Positions 189 through 9,092 of a DNA stretch of 11,988 bases are shown here, piece after piece. This stretch comes from Thermoanaerobacterium sp. GTDB taxonomy: Bacteria; Bacillota; Thermoanaerobacteria; Thermoanaerobacterales; Thermoanaerobacteraceae. The translations under genes were made by a program, and so were the position numbers. The notes under the pieces are model-generated. The model had not been told where the DNA came from and ran no database searches. It was given only the letters and a program-made list of their open reading frames with translations. The DNA lies in assembly GCA_029960905.1 (NCBI GenBank), contig JASBVU010000020.1:1-11988 (forward strand), read 5' to 3'. The first letter of the stretch is position 1, and each line of letters opens with the position of its first letter.

Positions 189-213
189 ATATTCTGTTGA
201 AAGGATGATTAAC

Positions 214-1308
214 ATGCACAAGTTCGCTTTTATCATACATCCAATTGAATATGAAGATGTCAGCAGAAAGTTTAAAATCATGAATAAATTGCCTCGCAGC
301 GTTGTAGAGGGTTTTACAAAAATGCTGCCACCTCTTAAAGTATCGGAGATAACAGGTGTAAAAAGCAAGTACGCTGAGACAGAAGGCTATTTTGTAGCAG
401 TGCCGCTTATTTCCAATCAGATGATGAGCCTTCCTGAAGATTACGTCATGAAAAAAATTATTAAGGCTGGCAAGATAGCAGAAAATTTAGGAGCTGAAAT
501 TGTAGGATTAGGCGCTTTGACGTCTGTAGTTGGGGATGCAGGAATCACAGTCGCGAAAAATCTCAATATTGCTGTAACTACAGGCAACAGCTACACAATC
601 GCTACTGCCATAGAGGGAACAAAAAAAGCCGCTGAACTTATGGGAAAAGATATAAGGGATTCAGAGGTTGTAGTAATAGGTGCCACAGGTTCCATAGGGA
701 AAGTGTGCGCTGAGATACTTTCCAGAGAAGCCAAGTACATGACATTGGTGGCGAGAAATAAGCAAAAGTTGGAGGACTTTAGCAAATATCTTTTAGAAAA
801 GACAGGCATGGCTGCAAGAGTCACATCTGACGTAAAAGACGCATTGAAAACTGCAGACATAGTTGTGACAGTTACAAGTGCTGTAGATACCATCATAAAG
901 CCTGAATACTTAAAACCAGGTGCTGTCGTATGTGATGTGGCAAGACCCAGGGATGTATCGAAGGAAGTTGCCGATGCAAGGGATGACGTATTGGTTATAG
1001 AAGGTGGTGTTGTGGAAGTGCCAGGGGATGTGGATTTTCACTTCAATTTTGGTTTCCCACCAAAGACAAGTTATGCGTGTATGGCGGAGACAATGATACT
1101 TGCAATGGAAGGCCGAATAGAAAACTTTTCTTTAGGAAGAGATTTGACTGTAGAACAAGTTGATACGATAGCTAAGTTAGCAAAAAAGCATGGCTTTAAG
1201 CTTGGAGGATTTAGGAGCTTTGAAAGGGCTGTATCAGAAGAAACTATAGAAAATGTGAGAAAGAATGCGGCAAGGAGATTAAAAAAAAATAGATTTAGTG
1301 CTGTATAG
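214..1308 (+). CDS. Acyl-ACP reductase (AAR)-like / shikimate dehydrogenase-fold NAD(P)-dependent oxidoreductase
   Basis: This 364-residue protein has a central Rossmann domain with the dinucleotide-binding loop VIGATGSIGKVCAEIL near residues 153-168, which is why such genes are often labelled quinate/shikimate dehydrogenase. The whole length resembles cyanobacterial long-chain acyl-ACP reductase as I recall it: GLGALTSVV in the N-terminal half, TTGNSYT just before the Rossmann fold, VEGGVVE-like IEGGVVEVPGDV, and SYACMAETMILAMEG. The Cys in the last motif (residue 289, codon 1078-1080) lines up with the cysteine that forms the acyl-thioester intermediate in AAR. AAR proteins are about 340 residues, so the length fits, with a basic C-terminal extension. 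In-frame ATGs occur at 205 and 214; GAAAGG at 199-204 abuts the first but lies 9 bases from the second, so 214 is preferred. The substrate is not known; a fatty acyl thioester is an inference from the family. Confidence 0.75.
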   Translation: MHKFAFIIHPIEYEDVSRKFKIMNKLPRSVVEGFTKMLPPLKVSEITGVKSKYAETEGYFVAVPLISNQMMSLPEDYVMKKIIKAGKIAENLGAEIVGLGALTSVVGDAGITVAKNLNIAVTTGNSYTIATAIEGTKKAAELMGKDIRDSEVVVIGATGSIGKVCAEILSREAKYMTLVARNKQKLEDFSKYLLEKTGMAARVTSDVKDALKTADIVVTVTSAVDTIIKPEYLKPGAVVCDVARPRDVSKEVADARDDVLVIEGGVVEVPGDVDFHFNFGFPPKTSYACMAETMILAMEGRIENFSLGRDLTVEQVDTIAKLAKKHGFKLGGFRSFERAVSEETIENVRKNAARRLKKNRFSAV

Positions 1309-1952: not shown

Positions 1953-3459
1953 ATGGCGAATACAAATGAAGTAAATAACAACGAAAACTTAAATGAGCTT
2001 CTAAAAGTTAGAAGGAGCAAGTTGGACGAGCTTAGGAGCTTAGGCGTTGAGCCTTATGGAATTGACAAGTTTGAGAGAACTAATATGACATCTGACATCA
2101 AAAATGATTATGACAAATTTGAAGGCAAGACAGTCACTATCGCTGGCCGCATAATGTCTAAAAGAGGGCACGGAAAGGCTTCCTTTGCTGATATACAAGA
2201 CAGAGATGGAAGAATACAGCTTTACTTTAAGATGGATGTTTTGGGGGAAAAGAATTACGAAATATTTAAAATACTTGACATCGGCGATATCATAGGTGTG
2301 ACAGGTGAAGTGTTTAAATCAAAGACAGGTGAAGTCACTATAAGGGTTCAGGATTTTAAGCTTCTGTCAAAGTCATTGCAGGTACTTCCAGATAAATGGC
2401 ATGGGCTTAAAGATCCAGATTTACGGTACAGGCAAAGGTATGTAGACCTTATAATAAATCCAAGCGTAAATGAAACTTTCATTAAAAGGACTGCAATCAT
2501 AAAAGCTATTAGGGAATTTTTAGATAATAGAGGATTTATAGAGGTAGAAACACCAATACCATACCATAGCAGGCAGTGCGGCAGCAAGGCCGTTTATAAC
2601 ACCACAATGCCCTTGACATCGACATATTTAAGGATTGCATTGAACCACCAAAGAGGCTTATCGTTGGTGGACTTGGAAAGTGTACGAGATGGGAAGAGTG
2701 TTTAGAAATGAAGGAATGGATATAAGGCACAATCCAGAATTTACACACGGAATTGTACGAAGCATATACCGACATCATGGTATGATGGATATAACTGAAA
2801 ATCTATTTGCGTATGTAGCCGAAAAGGTAAATGGCAGCAAAAAGATAATTTACCAAGGGACTGAGATAGATCTGACGCCACCCTGGAGAAGGCTTACTAT
2901 GATTGATGCCATAAAAGAATTTCTGGATATCGATTTTGACAAAGTATCGTCAGATGAAGAGGCAATAGAAATTGCTAAAAGGCATCATCTTGAAGTCAAA
3001 GAAGGCATGAAGAAAGGTGATGTAATAGCTCTTGTATTTGACGAGCTTTGCGAAAGCCATCTTATTCAGCCTACATTCATAATTGATTACCCTGTTGAAA
3101 TATCTCCATTGGCCAAGAGAAAACACGACAATCCTGCCCTTACATCAAGGTTTGAGGCTTTTATATACGGCAGAGAAATTGCAAATGCATTTTCAGAGTT
3201 AAACGACCCAATTGACCAAAAGGAGAGGTTTATAGAACAGCTTAAGCAAAGAGAAGCTGGAAATGATGAAGCACACATGATGGACGATGACTTCATAAAT
3301 GCCTTAGAAGTTGGTATGCCTCCTACAGGGGGATTAGGCATTGGGATTGACAGGCTTATCATGTTTATGACCGATGCGTATTCTATAAGGGATGTCATAT
3401 TATTCCCTACCATGAAGCCAAAAGCTGATCAAGATGAAACAAAAGACGATGATGAATGA
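1953..3459 (+). pseudogene. lysS: Lysyl-tRNA synthetase (class II), disrupted by multiple frameshifts
   Basis: LysRS charges tRNA-Lys in the cytoplasm. The start at 1953 has GGAGG at 1942-1946. Residues 1-202 (to FIEVETPI, base 2558) read normally and include the N-terminal OB-fold tRNA-binding domain ([20 protein letters not shown]). From 2683 onward another frame gives the class II core: motif 2 ([13 protein letters not shown]), [16 protein letters not shown], and motif 3 ([14 protein letters not shown]), ending at 3459. Between them the expected protein survives only in pieces in all three frames: [14 protein letters not shown] from 2560, HNALDIDI from 2603, LRIAL from 2628, [10 protein letters not shown] from 2651. 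A second break leaves ELYEAYTD at 2750-2773 out of phase. About 14 bases seem to be missing in total; restoring them would give about 506 residues, the usual length. Programmed frameshifting cannot explain so many breaks. It is either a sequencing/assembly fault or a real pseudogene. Confidence 0.85.
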
Positions 3460-3473
3460 AATATGTTTAAAAC

Positions 3474-3507
3474 AAAAACGGTTCTTGAGAGCCGTTTTTA
3501 TATTTTT
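3474..3507 (+). terminator. Rho-independent terminator after lysS
   Basis: Arms AAAAACGGTTC (3474-3484) and GAGCCGTTTTT (3489-3499) pair with one G-U and enclose a TTGA loop. The run of T continues as TTTTTATATTTTT to 3507. It lies 15 bases after the lysS stop. Confidence 0.9.
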
Positions 3508-3545: not shown

Positions 3546-3574
3546 TTGTACATAAAACTAAAAAATGTTATATT
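3546..3574 (+). promoter_or_regulatory. Predicted sigma-A promoter for the folE-folP-folK-queD-sfsA operon
   Basis: TTGTAC (3546-3551) and TATATT (3569-3574) are 17 bases apart, placing the start site near 3581, about 28 bases before the folE start. It sits between the lysS terminator and folE. Confidence 0.6.
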
Positions 3575-3608: not shown

Positions 3609-4175
3609 ATGATAGATAAAGAGAAGATAAAAAAAGCAGTGTATGACATTCTTGAAGCGATAGGTGAAGATCCTAAAAGAGAAGGACTTTTAGAGACACC
3701 AGATAGGGTTGCCAGAATGTACGAAGAGATTTTTTCAGGACTTCATGAAGATGTGATGGATGTCGTAAAGACATTTAAAGAGGACGAACATCAAGAAATA
3801 GTTATAGTAAAAGATATTCCAATGTACTCTATGTGTGAACATCATTTGCTGCCGTTTATGGGCGTTGCGCATGTGGCGTATCTTCCAAGAAAAGGCACAA
3901 TATTGGGTCTTTCTAAGCTTGCCAGAATCGTCGATATATTAGCAAAAAAGCCTCAGCTACAGGAGAGGCTTACCAGTGAGATTGCTGATACAATTGTAAA
4001 AGCCGCAAATCCTTTAGGGGTTGCAGTCGTTGTTGAGGCAGAGCACCTTTGCATGACAATGCGTGGCATAAAAAAACCTGGAGCGAAGACTGTAACGTCT
4101 GCATTAAGGGGACTATTTAAGACAGATCAGAGGTCCAGAGAAGAAGTCATGTTGCTTATAAATGGAAAGCGATAA
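3609..4175 (+). CDS. folE: GTP cyclohydrolase I
   Basis: This 188-residue enzyme converts GTP to 7,8-dihydroneopterin triphosphate, the first step of pterin, folate and queuosine synthesis. Zinc-site residues are visible in MCEHHLLPF (Cys76, His79) and HLCMTMRG (Cys148), so this is the zinc-type FolE (FolE1). N-terminal [15 protein letters not shown] and the C-terminal TSALRGLF are typical. In-frame ATGs occur at 3603 and 3609; GAGGAG (3596-3601) is one base from the first and seven from the second, so 3609 is preferred. It heads an operon in which folP begins 23 bases downstream. Confidence 0.97.
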
Positions 4176-4198
4176 TCATAGTTGGAAAGGATGATGTT

Positions 4199-5011
4199 AT
4201 GTCTTACATTTTAAAATTAAGGGATAAAGAGTTGGAAATCGGCAAAAAGACGTACATAATGGGGATATTGAATATGACGCCTGATTCTTTCTCCGATGGC
4301 GGAAAATACAATACATTGGAGAAGGGCATGGAGAGAGCTTTAAAGATGATTGAAGACGGTGCAGATATAATAGACGTAGGCGGAGAATCATCAAGACCTG
4401 GATATACACCTGTGACTGCAGAAGAAGAGCTTTTGAGGATAGATGATATAGTCAAGAAATTGTGTGAAGTAGACACGATAATTTCAATTGATACTACGAA
4501 ATCAAAAGTGGCTTACGAGTGCCTTAAAAATGGGGCCCACATCATAAACGACATCTGGGGTTTACAAAAAGATCCTGATATGGCAAAAGTCGTTGCTGAT
4601 TATGAAGCTGGTGTCGTAATAATGCACAATAAGGAAGTGGCAGAGTACGATGACCTTTTAAAGGATGTAATAAGTTTTTTTGAGAAAAGCATTGATATTG
4701 CTTTAAAAGCAGGTATAAAAAGGGAAAGCATAATGATCGATCCAGGCATAGGTTTTGGGAAGACTTTAGAGCACAATCTGACATTGATGAAACGGCTCGA
4801 TGAGCTAAAGGTATTGGGATTTCCGATATTGCTTGGAACATCAAGAAAGTCAATGATAGGACGTGTCTTAAACCTTGACGTAAATGAAAGAATGGAGGGT
4901 ACTGCTGCGACAGTTGCGGTAGGAATAGTAAAAGGTGCTGACATCGTCAGAGTGCATGACGTAAAAGAGATGTGGCGTGTAGCTAAAATGACGGATGCGA
5001 TGGTAAGATGA
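4199..5011 (+). CDS. folP: Dihydropteroate synthase
   Basis: A 270-residue TIM-barrel enzyme that joins 6-hydroxymethyl-7,8-dihydropterin pyrophosphate to p-aminobenzoate, the sulfonamide target. Family motifs appear in order: GILNMTPDSFSDGG near residues 22-35, DVGGESSRPG near 60, SIDTTKSKVA near 98, INDIWG, DPGIGFGKT near 180, LLGTSRKS near 218 and VRVHDVKE near the C-terminus. The ATG at 4199 follows GGAAAGG (4184-4190) by eight bases. The last codons overlap folK by four bases (ATGA), indicating translational coupling. Confidence 0.97.
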   Translation: MSYILKLRDKELEIGKKTYIMGILNMTPDSFSDGGKYNTLEKGMERALKMIEDGADIIDVGGESSRPGYTPVTAEEELLRIDDIVKKLCEVDTIISIDTTKSKVAYECLKNGAHIINDIWGLQKDPDMAKVVADYEAGVVIMHNKEVAEYDDLLKDVISFFEKSIDIALKAGIKRESIMIDPGIGFGKTLEHNLTLMKRLDELKVLGFPILLGTSRKSMIGRVLNLDVNERMEGTAATVAVGIVKGADIVRVHDVKEMWRVAKMTDAMVR

Positions 5012-5511
5012 CAGATGTTTTTTTATCTATTGGTTCTAACATTGGTGATAGGGAGAAATATTTAAAAAGTGCACTTATTAAGCTTGCAGAAAATTCTGTC
5101 ACTATAGAAAAGGTATCGCCTATATATGAGACAGAGCCTGTAGGTTATAAGAATCAAGATAAATTTTTAAATGCTGTAGCAAAGATAAAAACAGAGCTTA
5201 ACCCATATGAGCTTCTTAAAATTATAAATACGGTAGAAAAAGAGCTTGGAAGAGAAAGGGTTATAAGATGGGGACCTCGCACAATTGACATAGATATTCT
5301 TTTATATGGAAATGTGGCTATAAACGATTATGATTTAAAAATACCCCATGAGCGCATGTGGGAAAGAGCTTTTGTGTTAATTCCACTTAATGATATAGCA
5401 CCTGACATAACGAAAGATGGGAAGAAATTGTCACGTATAATAGAAATGCTGACGGACAGAGAAGGTGTGAAGCTATACAAGAGAGATTGGTATAAGGTGG
5501 TGGATGTATGA
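5008..5511 (+). CDS. folK: 2-amino-4-hydroxy-6-hydroxymethyldihydropteridine pyrophosphokinase (HPPK)
   Basis: A 167-residue enzyme that transfers pyrophosphate from ATP to 6-hydroxymethyl-dihydropterin, giving the FolP substrate. Motifs are SIGSNIGDRE at the N-terminus, SPIYETEPVG near residue 40, FLNAVAKI, and the signature RWGPRTIDIDILLYG near residues 86-100, whose Asp pair binds Mg2+. The protein starts directly at the HPPK domain, so it is not a FolB-FolK fusion. This matters because no separate folB lies in the operon. It overlaps folP and queD by four bases each. Confidence 0.96.
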   Translation: MTDVFLSIGSNIGDREKYLKSALIKLAENSVTIEKVSPIYETEPVGYKNQDKFLNAVAKIKTELNPYELLKIINTVEKELGRERVIRWGPRTIDIDILLYGNVAINDYDLKIPHERMWERAFVLIPLNDIAPDITKDGKKLSRIIEMLTDREGVKLYKRDWYKVVDV

Positions 5512-5879
5512 GAGTGACAAAAGTATTTACATTTGACAGTGCCCATAATTTGACGAAGTACAATGGCAAGTGTGAAAATCTCCACGGACATACGTACAAG
5601 TTGGAGGTAACTGTGGAAGGTAGCATTGACGATGAGGGGATAGTCATAGATTTTGCTGAGTTAAAAGCTATCGTTGATAGCGAAGTTGTAAAAAAGTTGG
5701 ATCATGCGTACTTAAATGACGTGTTGGGTTTTAACACGACGTGTGAAAATATAGCAATATGGATGTGGGAAAAGTTAGAGCCTCGTTTAAGAAACGAAAG
5801 ATTTCATCTCTACAGCATAAGGCTGTGGGAAACTCCGACGAGTTTCGCTGAAGTAAGCATAGAAGATTTTGTTAAATAA
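5508..5879 (+). CDS. queD: 6-pyruvoyl-tetrahydropterin synthase/QueD family protein, probable dual QueD/FolB-replacing (PTPS-I/III) type
   Basis: A 123-residue COG0720 enzyme that acts on dihydroneopterin triphosphate from FolE. Zinc ligands are His13 (FDSAHNL), His26 and His28 (LHGH). The motif before them is Cys22-Glu23-Asn-Leu-His-Gly-His. QueD (6-carboxy-tetrahydropterin synthase) has CxxxHGH. The PTPS-III form, which makes 6-hydroxymethyl-dihydropterin and replaces FolB, has ExxHGH. This protein satisfies both, the CExxHGH pattern described for enzymes with both activities. LDHAYLND near residue 64 and LWETPTSFAEV near residue 105 complete the family pattern. It starts four bases inside folK and sits where folB would be expected. 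No queC, queE or queF lies nearby, which favours a folate role. The dual activity is inferred. Confidence 0.88.
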   Translation: MRVTKVFTFDSAHNLTKYNGKCENLHGHTYKLEVTVEGSIDDEGIVIDFAELKAIVDSEVVKKLDHAYLNDVLGFNTTCENIAIWMWEKLEPRLRNERFHLYSIRLWETPTSFAEVSIEDFVK

Positions 5880-5899: not shown

Positions 5900-6589
5900 A
5901 TGTTTATAGAAAACCCGATTGTAAAAGGGAGATTTTTAGAGAGGATAAACAGATTTTTAGCTCGTGTAGAGATAGATGGTGAAATCATAACTGTTCATGT
6001 GCCTAATACGGGCAGGTGCAAGGAATTGTTTGTGCCTGGTGCAACTGTTGTTCTTGAAAAGAGAGAAGGAATGAAAAGAAAAACTCTTTACGAATTAGAA
6101 TTCGTCTATAAGGGTACAAGGCTTATATCCATCGATTCGCAAATTCCCAACAAAGTAGTCATGGATAATATTTTGCGGGGCAAATTGGATAAGTTTACAG
6201 GTTATGATGTAATCGAAAAAGAAAAAACGTATAAAAACAGCAAATTTGATTTGAAGCTTTCTAAAAAGGATGAAGTTTTTTTCATAGAAGTTAAGGGCGT
6301 CACCCTTGAGGAAAATGGCGTTGTAATGTTTCCGGATGCACCAACTGAAAGAGGAACAAAACACATGGTAGAACTTAAGAAAGCTAAAGAAGATGGCATG
6401 AGGGCTGCTGTCGTTTTTCTCGTTCAGATGGATGATGTGCTTTATTTTACACCAAATGTAAAGACAGATATTAAATTTGCGTATGCTTTAAAAGATGCTA
6501 TTGATGCAGGCGTTGAAGTGTACGCATATTGTTGCGACGTGAAAGAAAACTTTATCGACATAAAAGATGAAGTCGAAATTAAAATTTAG
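5900..6589 (+). CDS. sfsA: SfsA family protein (sugar fermentation stimulation protein homologue)
   Basis: A 229-residue protein. The N-terminal OB-like region contains VHVPNTGRCKELFVPG near residue 35. The C-terminal part looks like a PD-(D/E)xK nuclease fold: Asp in SKFDLKL followed by the E-x-K of FFIEVKGVTLEENG, then MFPDAPTERGTKHMVEL, the SfsA signature. E. coli SfsA was described as a DNA-binding regulator of maltose genes; a nuclease activity is suggested by the fold, and the true role is unsettled. A GTG at 5882 is in frame, but only the ATG at 5900 has a usable Shine-Dalgarno (GGAAGG, 5884-5889), and it gives the normal length. It follows queD by 20 bases and closes the operon. Confidence 0.93.
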   Translation: MFIENPIVKGRFLERINRFLARVEIDGEIITVHVPNTGRCKELFVPGATVVLEKREGMKRKTLYELEFVYKGTRLISIDSQIPNKVVMDNILRGKLDKFTGYDVIEKEKTYKNSKFDLKLSKKDEVFFIEVKGVTLEENGVVMFPDAPTERGTKHMVELKKAKEDGMRAAVVFLVQMDDVLYFTPNVKTDIKFAYALKDAIDAGVEVYAYCCDVKENFIDIKDEVEIKI

Positions 6590-6601
6590 TTATGGAAACG
6601 T

Positions 6602-6631
6602 GGGCGGGGTTACTCGTCTTTTGTTTTTTTT
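6602..6631 (+). terminator. Rho-independent terminator after sfsA
   Basis: GGGCGGG (6602-6608) pairs with CTCGTCT (6613-6619) using three G-U pairs around a GTTA loop, followed by TTTTG and a run of eight or more T. It ends the folE-sfsA operon and overlaps the -35 region of the next gene. Confidence 0.65.
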
Positions 6632-7179: not shown

Positions 7180-7205
7180 TTTAACTTAAAGAAAGGATGT
7201 TTTTT

Positions 7206-8600
7206 ATGAAAGATGATCAAAAATACATAACGTGTGATGATGCGCTTAAATTAAACAGGAGCCAAGTGCGGGAAAATTACAAAGAGTACGTGAATTCTAA
7301 TTTTGTCTCTATGCTGTCGATGCTGCAGTTTGATAAGCTTTTTATAAAAGCAAAAGGCGTATCTGTATGGGACAGCGACGGAAATGAGTATTTGGATTTC
7401 CTCGGCGGCTATGGTGCATTAAATTTAGGCCACAATCCAGATGAAATTTATGAAGCGATAGAAAAAGTTAAAGATTTTCCGAACATACTTCAAGCTGCTG
7501 TAAATGATTTTCCGGGAGCATTGGCGTACGATTTAGCGATTGTTACCCCTGGCGATTTAAAAAAGAGCTTTTTCTGCAACAGCGGTGCTGAAGCGGTGGA
7601 AGGTGCCTTGAAACTTGCTAAAATTGCTTCAGGCAAGCATAAAATAGTCTACTGTAAAAATTCCTTTCATGGCAAATCTGCAGGAGCTCTTTCTGTTACT
7701 GGACGTGAGAAGTATCAAAAGTACTTTATGCCCTTACTTCCTGATACGGTACAGGTGGAATATGGTGACGCTAATGCATTAGAAGATGCATTAAAGGGAA
7801 AAGATGTAGCTGCATTTATTGTAGAGCCTATACAAGGCGAAGGTGGTGTCATAGTTCCTCATGATGGATACTTAAGAGAAGTGAGAGAACTTACTGAGAA
7901 ATACGATGCATACCTGATATTTGATGAAGTACAGACTGGATTTGGAAGAACTGGAAAAATGTTTGCCTGTGAGCACGAAGACGTGGTGCCTGACATAATG
8001 TGCTTGGCAAAATCGCTGGGAGGCGGTGTGATGCCTATAGGTGCGTATATTGCAAAGGATGAAGTATGGAAGAAAGGCTACGGCACTACTGATAGATGCC
8101 TTTTACATACATCAACTTTTGGCGGCAATACATTAGCATGTGCCGCTGGTATTACAGCCATAAAACTTATTTTAGATAAGAACCTTCCTGATGCTGCAAG
8201 AGAAAAAGGCGAATACTTCTTAAAAAGGCTAAGAGAATTAAAAGAAAAGCATAAATTGATAAAAGATGTAAGAGGCAAAGGACTTATGATAGGCGTTGAA
8301 TTTAACCAGCCAGAAGGCGGGCTTTTAGACAAATTGTCTGGAGGAGCCGTATCAAAATTGTCCAATGAATACTTAGGCTCATTGGTGGCTGGAGAACTTC
8401 AAAATAAACATCGCATCATAACGGCATATACCCTTAATAATCCAAATGTAATAAGATTTGAACCACCTCTAATTGTTACTAAAGAGCAGATTGATAGAGT
8501 TGTAGATGCTTTGGATGAGATAATGACGAGAAGCGGCAGTCTGTTAGGGATGACCATATCCAGTGCAAAGACCGTTTTGGGTTCATTTTTCAACAGATAG
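7206..8600 (+). CDS. Class III (PLP-dependent) aminotransferase, putrescine/ornithine aminotransferase-like
   Basis: A 464-residue fold-type I aminotransferase. Landmarks: DGNEYLDFLGGYGALNLGH near residue 60, phosphate-binding NSGAEAVEGALKLAK (Ser126), SFHGKSAGALSVTG near 155, IVEPIQGEGGVIVP near 208, FDEVQTGFGRTGK with Asp240 (pyridine-nitrogen contact), CLAKSLGGGVMPIGA with Lys269 (Schiff-base lysine), and HTSTFGGNTLACAAG near 300. Length and sequence feel are closest to the PatA/YgjG putrescine aminotransferase group, but acetylornithine, ornithine or GABA-type activity cannot be excluded without the substrate pocket. An ATG at 7197 abuts GAAAGG (7191-7196); the ATG at 7206 lies nine bases after it and is preferred. 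The next gene follows at once, so the two probably share a transcript. Confidence 0.93.
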   Translation: MKDDQKYITCDDALKLNRSQVRENYKEYVNSNFVSMLSMLQFDKLFIKAKGVSVWDSDGNEYLDFLGGYGALNLGHNPDEIYEAIEKVKDFPNILQAAVNDFPGALAYDLAIVTPGDLKKSFFCNSGAEAVEGALKLAKIASGKHKIVYCKNSFHGKSAGALSVTGREKYQKYFMPLLPDTVQVEYGDANALEDALKGKDVAAFIVEPIQGEGGVIVPHDGYLREVRELTEKYDAYLIFDEVQTGFGRTGKMFACEHEDVVPDIMCLAKSLGGGVMPIGAYIAKDEVWKKGYGTTDRCLLHTSTFGGNTLACAAGITAIKLILDKNLPDAAREKGEYFLKRLRELKEKHKLIKDVRGKGLMIGVEFNQPEGGLLDKLSGGAVSKLSNEYLGSLVAGELQNKHRIITAYTLNNPNVIRFEPPLIVTKEQIDRVVDALDEIMTRSGSLLGMTISSAKTVLGSFFNR

Positions 8601-8609
8601 GTGATTTTT

Positions 8610-9092
8610 ATGGATATTAAGAAATTGTTTGATAGCGGTATAAGCTTTAATGAATTTATCAAAAGTGATGAAAACAAAAACTCAGAAATTTTCAAAAACA
8701 GGTTTGAAACTGTGAATATAGATGAAAATATTAAGAATATTAAAAGTAGGATTTCAAGTGTTTTGTCTTTTGCCGAAAGCTGGTGCCCAGACTGTCAAGT
8801 AAGCGTGCCAATAATGGCAAAAATATGTGCTCTTTTAGGAATCGACTTTCGGATATTGAAAAGAGAAGGACACGAAGAAGACATGATGGCATTTTGCGGA
8901 GATGGAAAGGCAAAGATACCGACATTCGTATTTTTTGATAATGATTTTAATGTAGCCGGTATTTGGATAGAAAGGCCTAAAATCATAAAGGAACTTGTGG
9001 CAAAAGGCGACAATAGCTTTAGAATAGGTTATGTAAATGGAGAATACGATAAAGAAATTGTAGATGAGCTTTTAGAAAAAATATCCCGTTGA
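8610..9092 (+). CDS. Thioredoxin family protein (Thioredoxin_9-like)
   Basis: A 160-residue cytoplasmic thioredoxin-fold protein with no signal peptide. A polar N-terminal helix region of about 48 residues precedes the fold. The redox motif is SFAESWCPDCQ with Cys59 and Cys62, and the cis-proline loop is KIPTFVFFDNDFNVAGIW, a pattern I associate with the Thioredoxin_9 group. That group is thought to be a thiol-disulfide reductase, but partners are unknown. An in-frame GTG at 8601 exists directly after the aminotransferase stop, but GGTGA at 8600-8604 works as the Shine-Dalgarno for the ATG at 8610, only nine bases past that stop. The tight spacing argues for co-expression with the aminotransferase. 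Its final bases form the left arm of the terminator. Confidence 0.9.
   Translation: MDIKKLFDSGISFNEFIKSDENKNSEIFKNRFETVNIDENIKNIKSRISSVLSFAESWCPDCQVSVPIMAKICALLGIDFRILKREGHEEDMMAFCGDGKAKIPTFVFFDNDFNVAGIWIERPKIIKELVAKGDNSFRIGYVNGEYDKEIVDELLEKISR

Follow-up and report, generated by a model that had tools for sequence, protein, structure and literature searches.

A CExxHGH enzyme of the COG0720 family as a predicted FolB replacement in the folate operon of Thermoanaerobacterium

Which pathway is served by a COG0720 enzyme that is encoded in a folate operon without a gene for dihydroneopterin aldolase (FolB), and whose motif fits both folate and queuosine synthesis? The question is raised by the window, the whole stretch of 11,988 nucleotides of Thermoanaerobacterium sp. 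that was analysed, which is contig C364 in a source assembly of 2.64 Mb (G000; 606 contigs, 89% complete). A first-pass annotation of the window had proposed a single enzyme for folate and possibly also for queuosine.

The folate operon and its surroundings

Four genes lie on the forward strand as first described, all with strong family matches: folE (GTP cyclohydrolase I, the dihydroneopterin triphosphate supplier; 3609..4175; TIGR00063, 243.5 bits, over the cut-off), folP (dihydropteroate synthase; 4199..5011; TIGR01496, 322.3 bits), folK (HMDHP pyrophosphokinase; 5008..5511; TIGR01498, 155.6 bits) and the gene of the COG0720/PTPS-family enzyme (5508..5879; PF01242, 140.9 bits). The close overlap described for them holds for folP–folK and folK–COG0720, which share four bases each (ATGA), but not for folE and folP, which are separated by a gap of 23 bases. 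FolK consists of a single HPPK domain and, as had been noted, is not fused to FolB. The COG0720 gene stands immediately 3′ of folK in 20/20 genomes of the family (nine of the window's own genus, G009, and ten of a second genus, g3). The likely transcript ends with sfsA (5900..6589, forward strand; TIGR00230), for which GTG 5882 is an alternative start. Terminator-like hairpins with T runs, both identified by consensus match only, follow lysS on the same strand (3474..3499, 11 pairs; the upstream limit of the operon) and sfsA (6602..6619). A promoter-like site (3547..3574, forward strand; 9/12 consensus match), whose second hexamer is preceded by TG, is weak, because such sites are no commoner in this region than in shuffled sequences. 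No Rfam family reached its gathering score in the window.

Several other features of the window were observed around the operon. lysS (1953..3459) is split into two overlapping frames, 1953..2705 and 2680..3459, whereas in each of the genus mates G001 and G006 a single open lysS frame, 511 residues long, matches the two pieces; the split is either an assembly error or a frameshift. The operon is flanked by genes at 205..1308 and 7197..8600, whose best NCBIfam match is to PigE, a fused prodigiosin enzyme; one gene corresponds to its reductase-like half and the other to its class III aminotransferase half, both matches being far below the cut-off. A Thioredoxin_9 family protein is encoded immediately after the aminotransferase gene (8601..9092), and the large chain of a ribonucleotide reductase, with an intein (Intein_splicing and LAGLIDADG_3) inside the barrel domain, runs off the contig end (9299..11986).

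The COG0720 protein has 123 residues, with PF01242 as its only domain and no FolB domain (PF02152). The codons at 5571..5591 (forward strand) read Cys22-Glu23-Asn-Leu-His-Gly-His28, confirming the CENLHGH motif reported for residues 22–28, which fits the patterns of PTPS-III (ExxHGH), of QueD (CxxxHGH) and of the PTPS-I/III hybrids (CExxHGH), the last giving the motif class of the protein. The PTPS-II motif CxxxxxHGH is absent from it, residue 20 (six before His26) being Gly. Within the reach of four alignments, His13, Cys22, His26, His28, Asp65, His66 and Glu108 align with the same residues in solved relatives; we take His13, His26 and His28 to be the zinc ligands, and Asp65-His66 and Glu108 to be other active-site residues. 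In work by Pribat et al. from 2009 and Phillips et al. from 2012, the glutamate reportedly either takes the place of the cysteine or stands next to it, enzymes of both types are said to have rescued an E. coli folB mutant, and enzymes with a dual function were reportedly validated.

Excerpts of PMC5041015 give ExxHGH as the signature of PTPS-III, CxxxHGH as that of QueD and CxxxxxHGH as that of PTPS-II (biopterin), state that the first two are not mutually exclusive and that CExxHGH can exist, and describe in some organisms a CExxHGH hybrid able to work in both the folate and the queuosine pathways. According to excerpts of PMC3223725, PTPS-III replaces FolB and has been validated in this role in one eukaryote and eight prokaryotes; Plasmodium falciparum and various bacteria are named in excerpts of PMC3223725 and PMC5041015. 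Passages of PMC4674097 report that many bacteria, Firmicutes among them, lack folB, and the protein A5I019 is called both QueD and PTPS-III in passages of PMC12506659.

Absence of FolB and distribution of the motif

The absence of folB, first claimed for the operon, was followed in a relatives sample of 41 genomes, 37 of them in-class (G000 included) and four from the outgroup. A PF02152 profile search found FolB in 0/37 in-class genomes, G000 among them, and in all four outgroup genomes of the phylum, so that a normal FolB elsewhere in the genome was rejected. This absence rests mainly on the eight genus mates, all with a completeness of 99% or more, since G000 is only 89% complete and in 606 contigs, and it is profile-based, such that a highly divergent FolB, or an aldolase unrelated to it, could escape it. 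The archaeal-type aldolase PF04038, considered as a substitute for FolB, was found in 0/41 genomes. PF01242 occurs in exactly one copy in 38 of the 41 genomes and in none of G020, G022 and G037; a second COG0720 gene was sought in G000 and its eight genus mates, and each proved to have a single copy.

All 35 in-class genomes with a COG0720 protein carry CExxHGH in it, while the COG0720 proteins of the three outgroup genomes that have one as well as FolB read CARIHGH, CSNLHGH and CARLHGH. A second sample, drawn from the phylum, comprised 299 genomes, of which 225 have FolB and 74 do not (20 of the 74 listed by name, the others obtained by subtraction), 14 of the 74 being in-class. Outside the class, 13 of the 60 FolB-less genomes encode a COG0720 protein, 11 with CExxHGH and two without the glutamate (G041, G115). 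As a control, 60 of the 225 FolB-bearing genomes were picked by hand, of which 40 gave a PF01242 match and 38 a canonical HGH protein; G051 and G102, with only long open frames that lack HGH, are not among the 38, and weak PF01242 matches were excluded (one each in G117, G134, G143 and G188, two in G216). In these 38 canonical proteins, glutamate follows the cysteine in none.

Taking both samples together, the genomes with a canonical COG0720 protein show CExxHGH in 46/48 cases without FolB and in 0/41 cases with FolB, which are not independent counts because the genomes are related. The 46 CExxHGH genomes are spread over seven families (f1, f3, f4, f10, f36, f79 and f106). With glutamate after the cysteine in 35/35 in-class proteins and in 0/43 COG0720 proteins of other kinds (41 from FolB genomes, two from genomes that lack FolB and have queE and queC), the motif reflects more than chance. 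The two exceptions, G041 (L194) and G115 (L193), have no FolB, and their COG0720 genes stand beside queE, folE and queC; the loss of FolB alone thus does not imply its replacement by such an enzyme.

The gene neighbourhoods vary. folP lies within about 1.5 kb of 9 of the 11 out-of-class CExxHGH genes; for the remaining two, the contig ends nearby in G200, and no folP is found within 12 kb in G256. A queE–queC cluster begins with the CExxHGH gene in G021 and G023. For two in-class genomes with longer flanks, 15 kb in G025 and 17 kb in G032, neither a fol nor a que gene was found beside the CExxHGH gene. In G042 (L203), the N-terminal part of this gene, with FDSAH, is out of frame with the motif, either through an assembly error or because the gene is broken.

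Among the best 120 of 1065 homologues, the cysteine is present in 120/120 and the glutamate also in 43/120. A tree of 150 COG0720 proteins (88 with CExxHGH and 62 others, the listed homologues without the glutamate being thinned to every fourth) implies six changes of the glutamate label, of which well supported branches force only one, the alignment having few columns. Another 80 named loci, from a search with six peptides (including KCENLHGH), are motif-biased and were used for no count.

Queuosine genes and the assignment to folate

The queuosine role was pursued through queE and queC. With a G023 protein as query (E 1e-10), no queE was found in the nine genomes of the window's genus (G000–G008), nor is there a real QueC in these nine genomes, five of which are single-contig. 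Both were likewise not found in the ten genomes of g3 (G010–G019). A real QueC (PF06508, E 1.2e-53 or better) is present in G009, G021, G023, G024–G031, G033–G036 and G038–G040, with E-values of about 1e-53 to 1e-80. The same query found QueE in the 15 in-class genomes that have a real QueC and in no others, i.e., the two distributions agree, with the reach of the QueE search limited by the fact that it missed outgroup genomes whose flanks show QueE-like genes.

Weak PF06508 matches over the Pfam cut-off occur in 41/41 genomes and were weighed as candidates for QueC in the QueC-poor genomes. The best of them have E-values of 1e-7 to 3e-6 in the window's genus, and of 4e-5 to 1e-7 across the window's genus, g3 and G032. 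Seven in total were identified via NCBIfam. The three that G000 has are ThiI, LarE and NAD synthase; ThiI is also the top one in G001 and in G015, and LarE and ThiI account for two of the four in G032. Given these names, none of the seven is QueC, and they were rejected as candidates.

Genes for salvage are present. TGT is found in 41/41 genomes (in G000 as a partial match at the edge of a contig, scoring under the cut-off). QueT has two copies in 8/8 genus mates, and 10/10 genomes of g3 carry two or three, so that the window's genus and g3 together have TGT in 19/19 and QueT in 18/19 genomes. QueT was not found in G000 (assembly 89% complete), nor in G009, G021 and G023, the latter three having QueC. 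Each of G024–G036 has one copy, and as 12 of these 13 also have QueC, QueT alone is no proof of dependence on salvage. Passages of PMC5372724 treat TGT without queD, queE and queC as salvage, and give QueT as a predicted, unverified transporter of preQ1. The window's genus most likely salvages a queuosine precursor, presumably through QueT and TGT, and its COG0720 enzyme most likely serves folate. No paper that pairs Thermoanaerobacterium with queuosine was found in a limited literature search.

The proposal of one enzyme for two pathways has to be weighed against these results. A PTPS-I/III enzyme that feeds both folate and queuosine would agree with the motif, which fits both signatures, and with the 15 in-class genomes that have QueE and QueC, no FolB and a single CExxHGH enzyme; as the sole such enzyme there, it can probably carry out both reactions, and a dual role in those 15 genomes is plausible. 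For the window's organism, however, this is improbable, as QueE and a real QueC are absent from 9/9 genomes of the genus and the salvage genes TGT and QueT are present. The protein resembles the hybrids described in excerpts of PMC5041015 in its double motif, its protein family and the lack of FolB (with FolB tested in the window's organism only), but differs in that QueE and QueC are missing from the window's genus, and only the folate role is usable as far as known.

A plain QueD (PTPS-I), with the folate precursor supplied by another route or folate taken up, is what the databases suggest: the protein scores 111.6 against the TIGR03367 (QueD) cut-off of 89.25, and its closest named homologue, a Thermoanaerobacterium protein with 88% identity, bears the NCBI name QueD. 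It shares Cys22, the zinc histidines and the Asp-His pair with solved proteins (4ntm and 3qn0) of the QueD/PTPS-I type, which is also known from E. coli, whereas the solved proteins have Gly after the cysteine and the protein of the window has Glu. The lack of QueE and QueC, the location of the gene in the folE–folP–folK operon and the equivalent of Glu23 in 0/43 COG0720 proteins of other kinds make this reading very unlikely.

The reading that we prefer, at a probability of roughly 0.87, is that the gene at 5508..5879 encodes a PTPS-III replacement for FolB, predicted from sequence comparison to serve folate and not queuosine in the window's genus. The folate part of the original proposal is retained with it, on the operon, the absence of FolB and of PF04038, and the glutamate, whereas the queuosine part is not, given that QueE and a real QueC are missing. 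We infer that the enzyme would convert the dihydroneopterin triphosphate of FolE into 6-hydroxymethyl-dihydropterin by side-chain cleavage, with Glu23 presumably steering the reaction to this product, and would thereby stand in for FolB and the preceding dephosphorylation; FolK and FolP, encoded in the same operon, would then use the product. With QueE and QueC missing, the enzyme would not feed queuosine in this genus, where we know of no use for any carboxytetrahydropterin made. The likeness to PTPS-III as described in excerpts of PMC3223725 and PMC5041015 lies in the Glu before xxHGH, the folate gene neighbours and the missing FolB, the difference being that the window's protein keeps Cys beside Glu.

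The retained cysteine

The 46 CExxHGH genomes divide into 15 with QueC and 31 without it. In the 31 QueC-less genomes, the CExxHGH proteins (median pairwise identity 61%, minimum 43%) all keep Cys22, Glu23, His26, His28, Asp65, His66 and Glu108, and 30/31 keep His13, the lone exception being L135, in which the FDSAH part is in another frame. With 29 of 123 positions invariant in this set, the retention of Cys22 is not striking alone; the comparison shows that Cys22 is constrained like the other active-site residues, a constraint from which its cause does not follow. The cysteine can be lost within the family, as the solved relative 2dj6 (PH0634) has Trp-Glu at the place of Cys-Glu.

A further explanation is that the folate precursor is made and that the cysteine additionally serves to make carboxytetrahydropterin or another pterin for an unidentified use. 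The presence of Cys22 in 31/31 of these proteins would agree with it, but 29 of 123 positions are just as invariant and no user of such a product is known, which leaves it, too, very improbable. Since all 31 QueC-less genomes of the 46 keep the cysteine, CExxHGH does not predict queuosine synthesis. It is tentatively suggested, and somewhat doubtful, that CExxHGH is no mark of queuosine, that such enzymes serve folate only in several families of the phylum, and that the invariant cysteine acts, or is structurally needed, in the folate reaction rather than being a relic.

The CExxHGH enzyme of the window, as a predicted FolB replacement, is most likely an ordinary member of an already described family. 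The retention of the cysteine in all 31 of the 46 CExxHGH genomes that lack QueC may be new, as a small point and within a limited literature search, and the 15 genomes with QueC against the 31 without it offer a natural comparison for the part of the cysteine in the folate reaction. The NCBI name QueD of the Thermoanaerobacterium protein probably misleads, because the queuosine enzymes that follow are missing from the genus; under that name, the step of the folate pathway that the enzyme most likely performs would seem to be missing.
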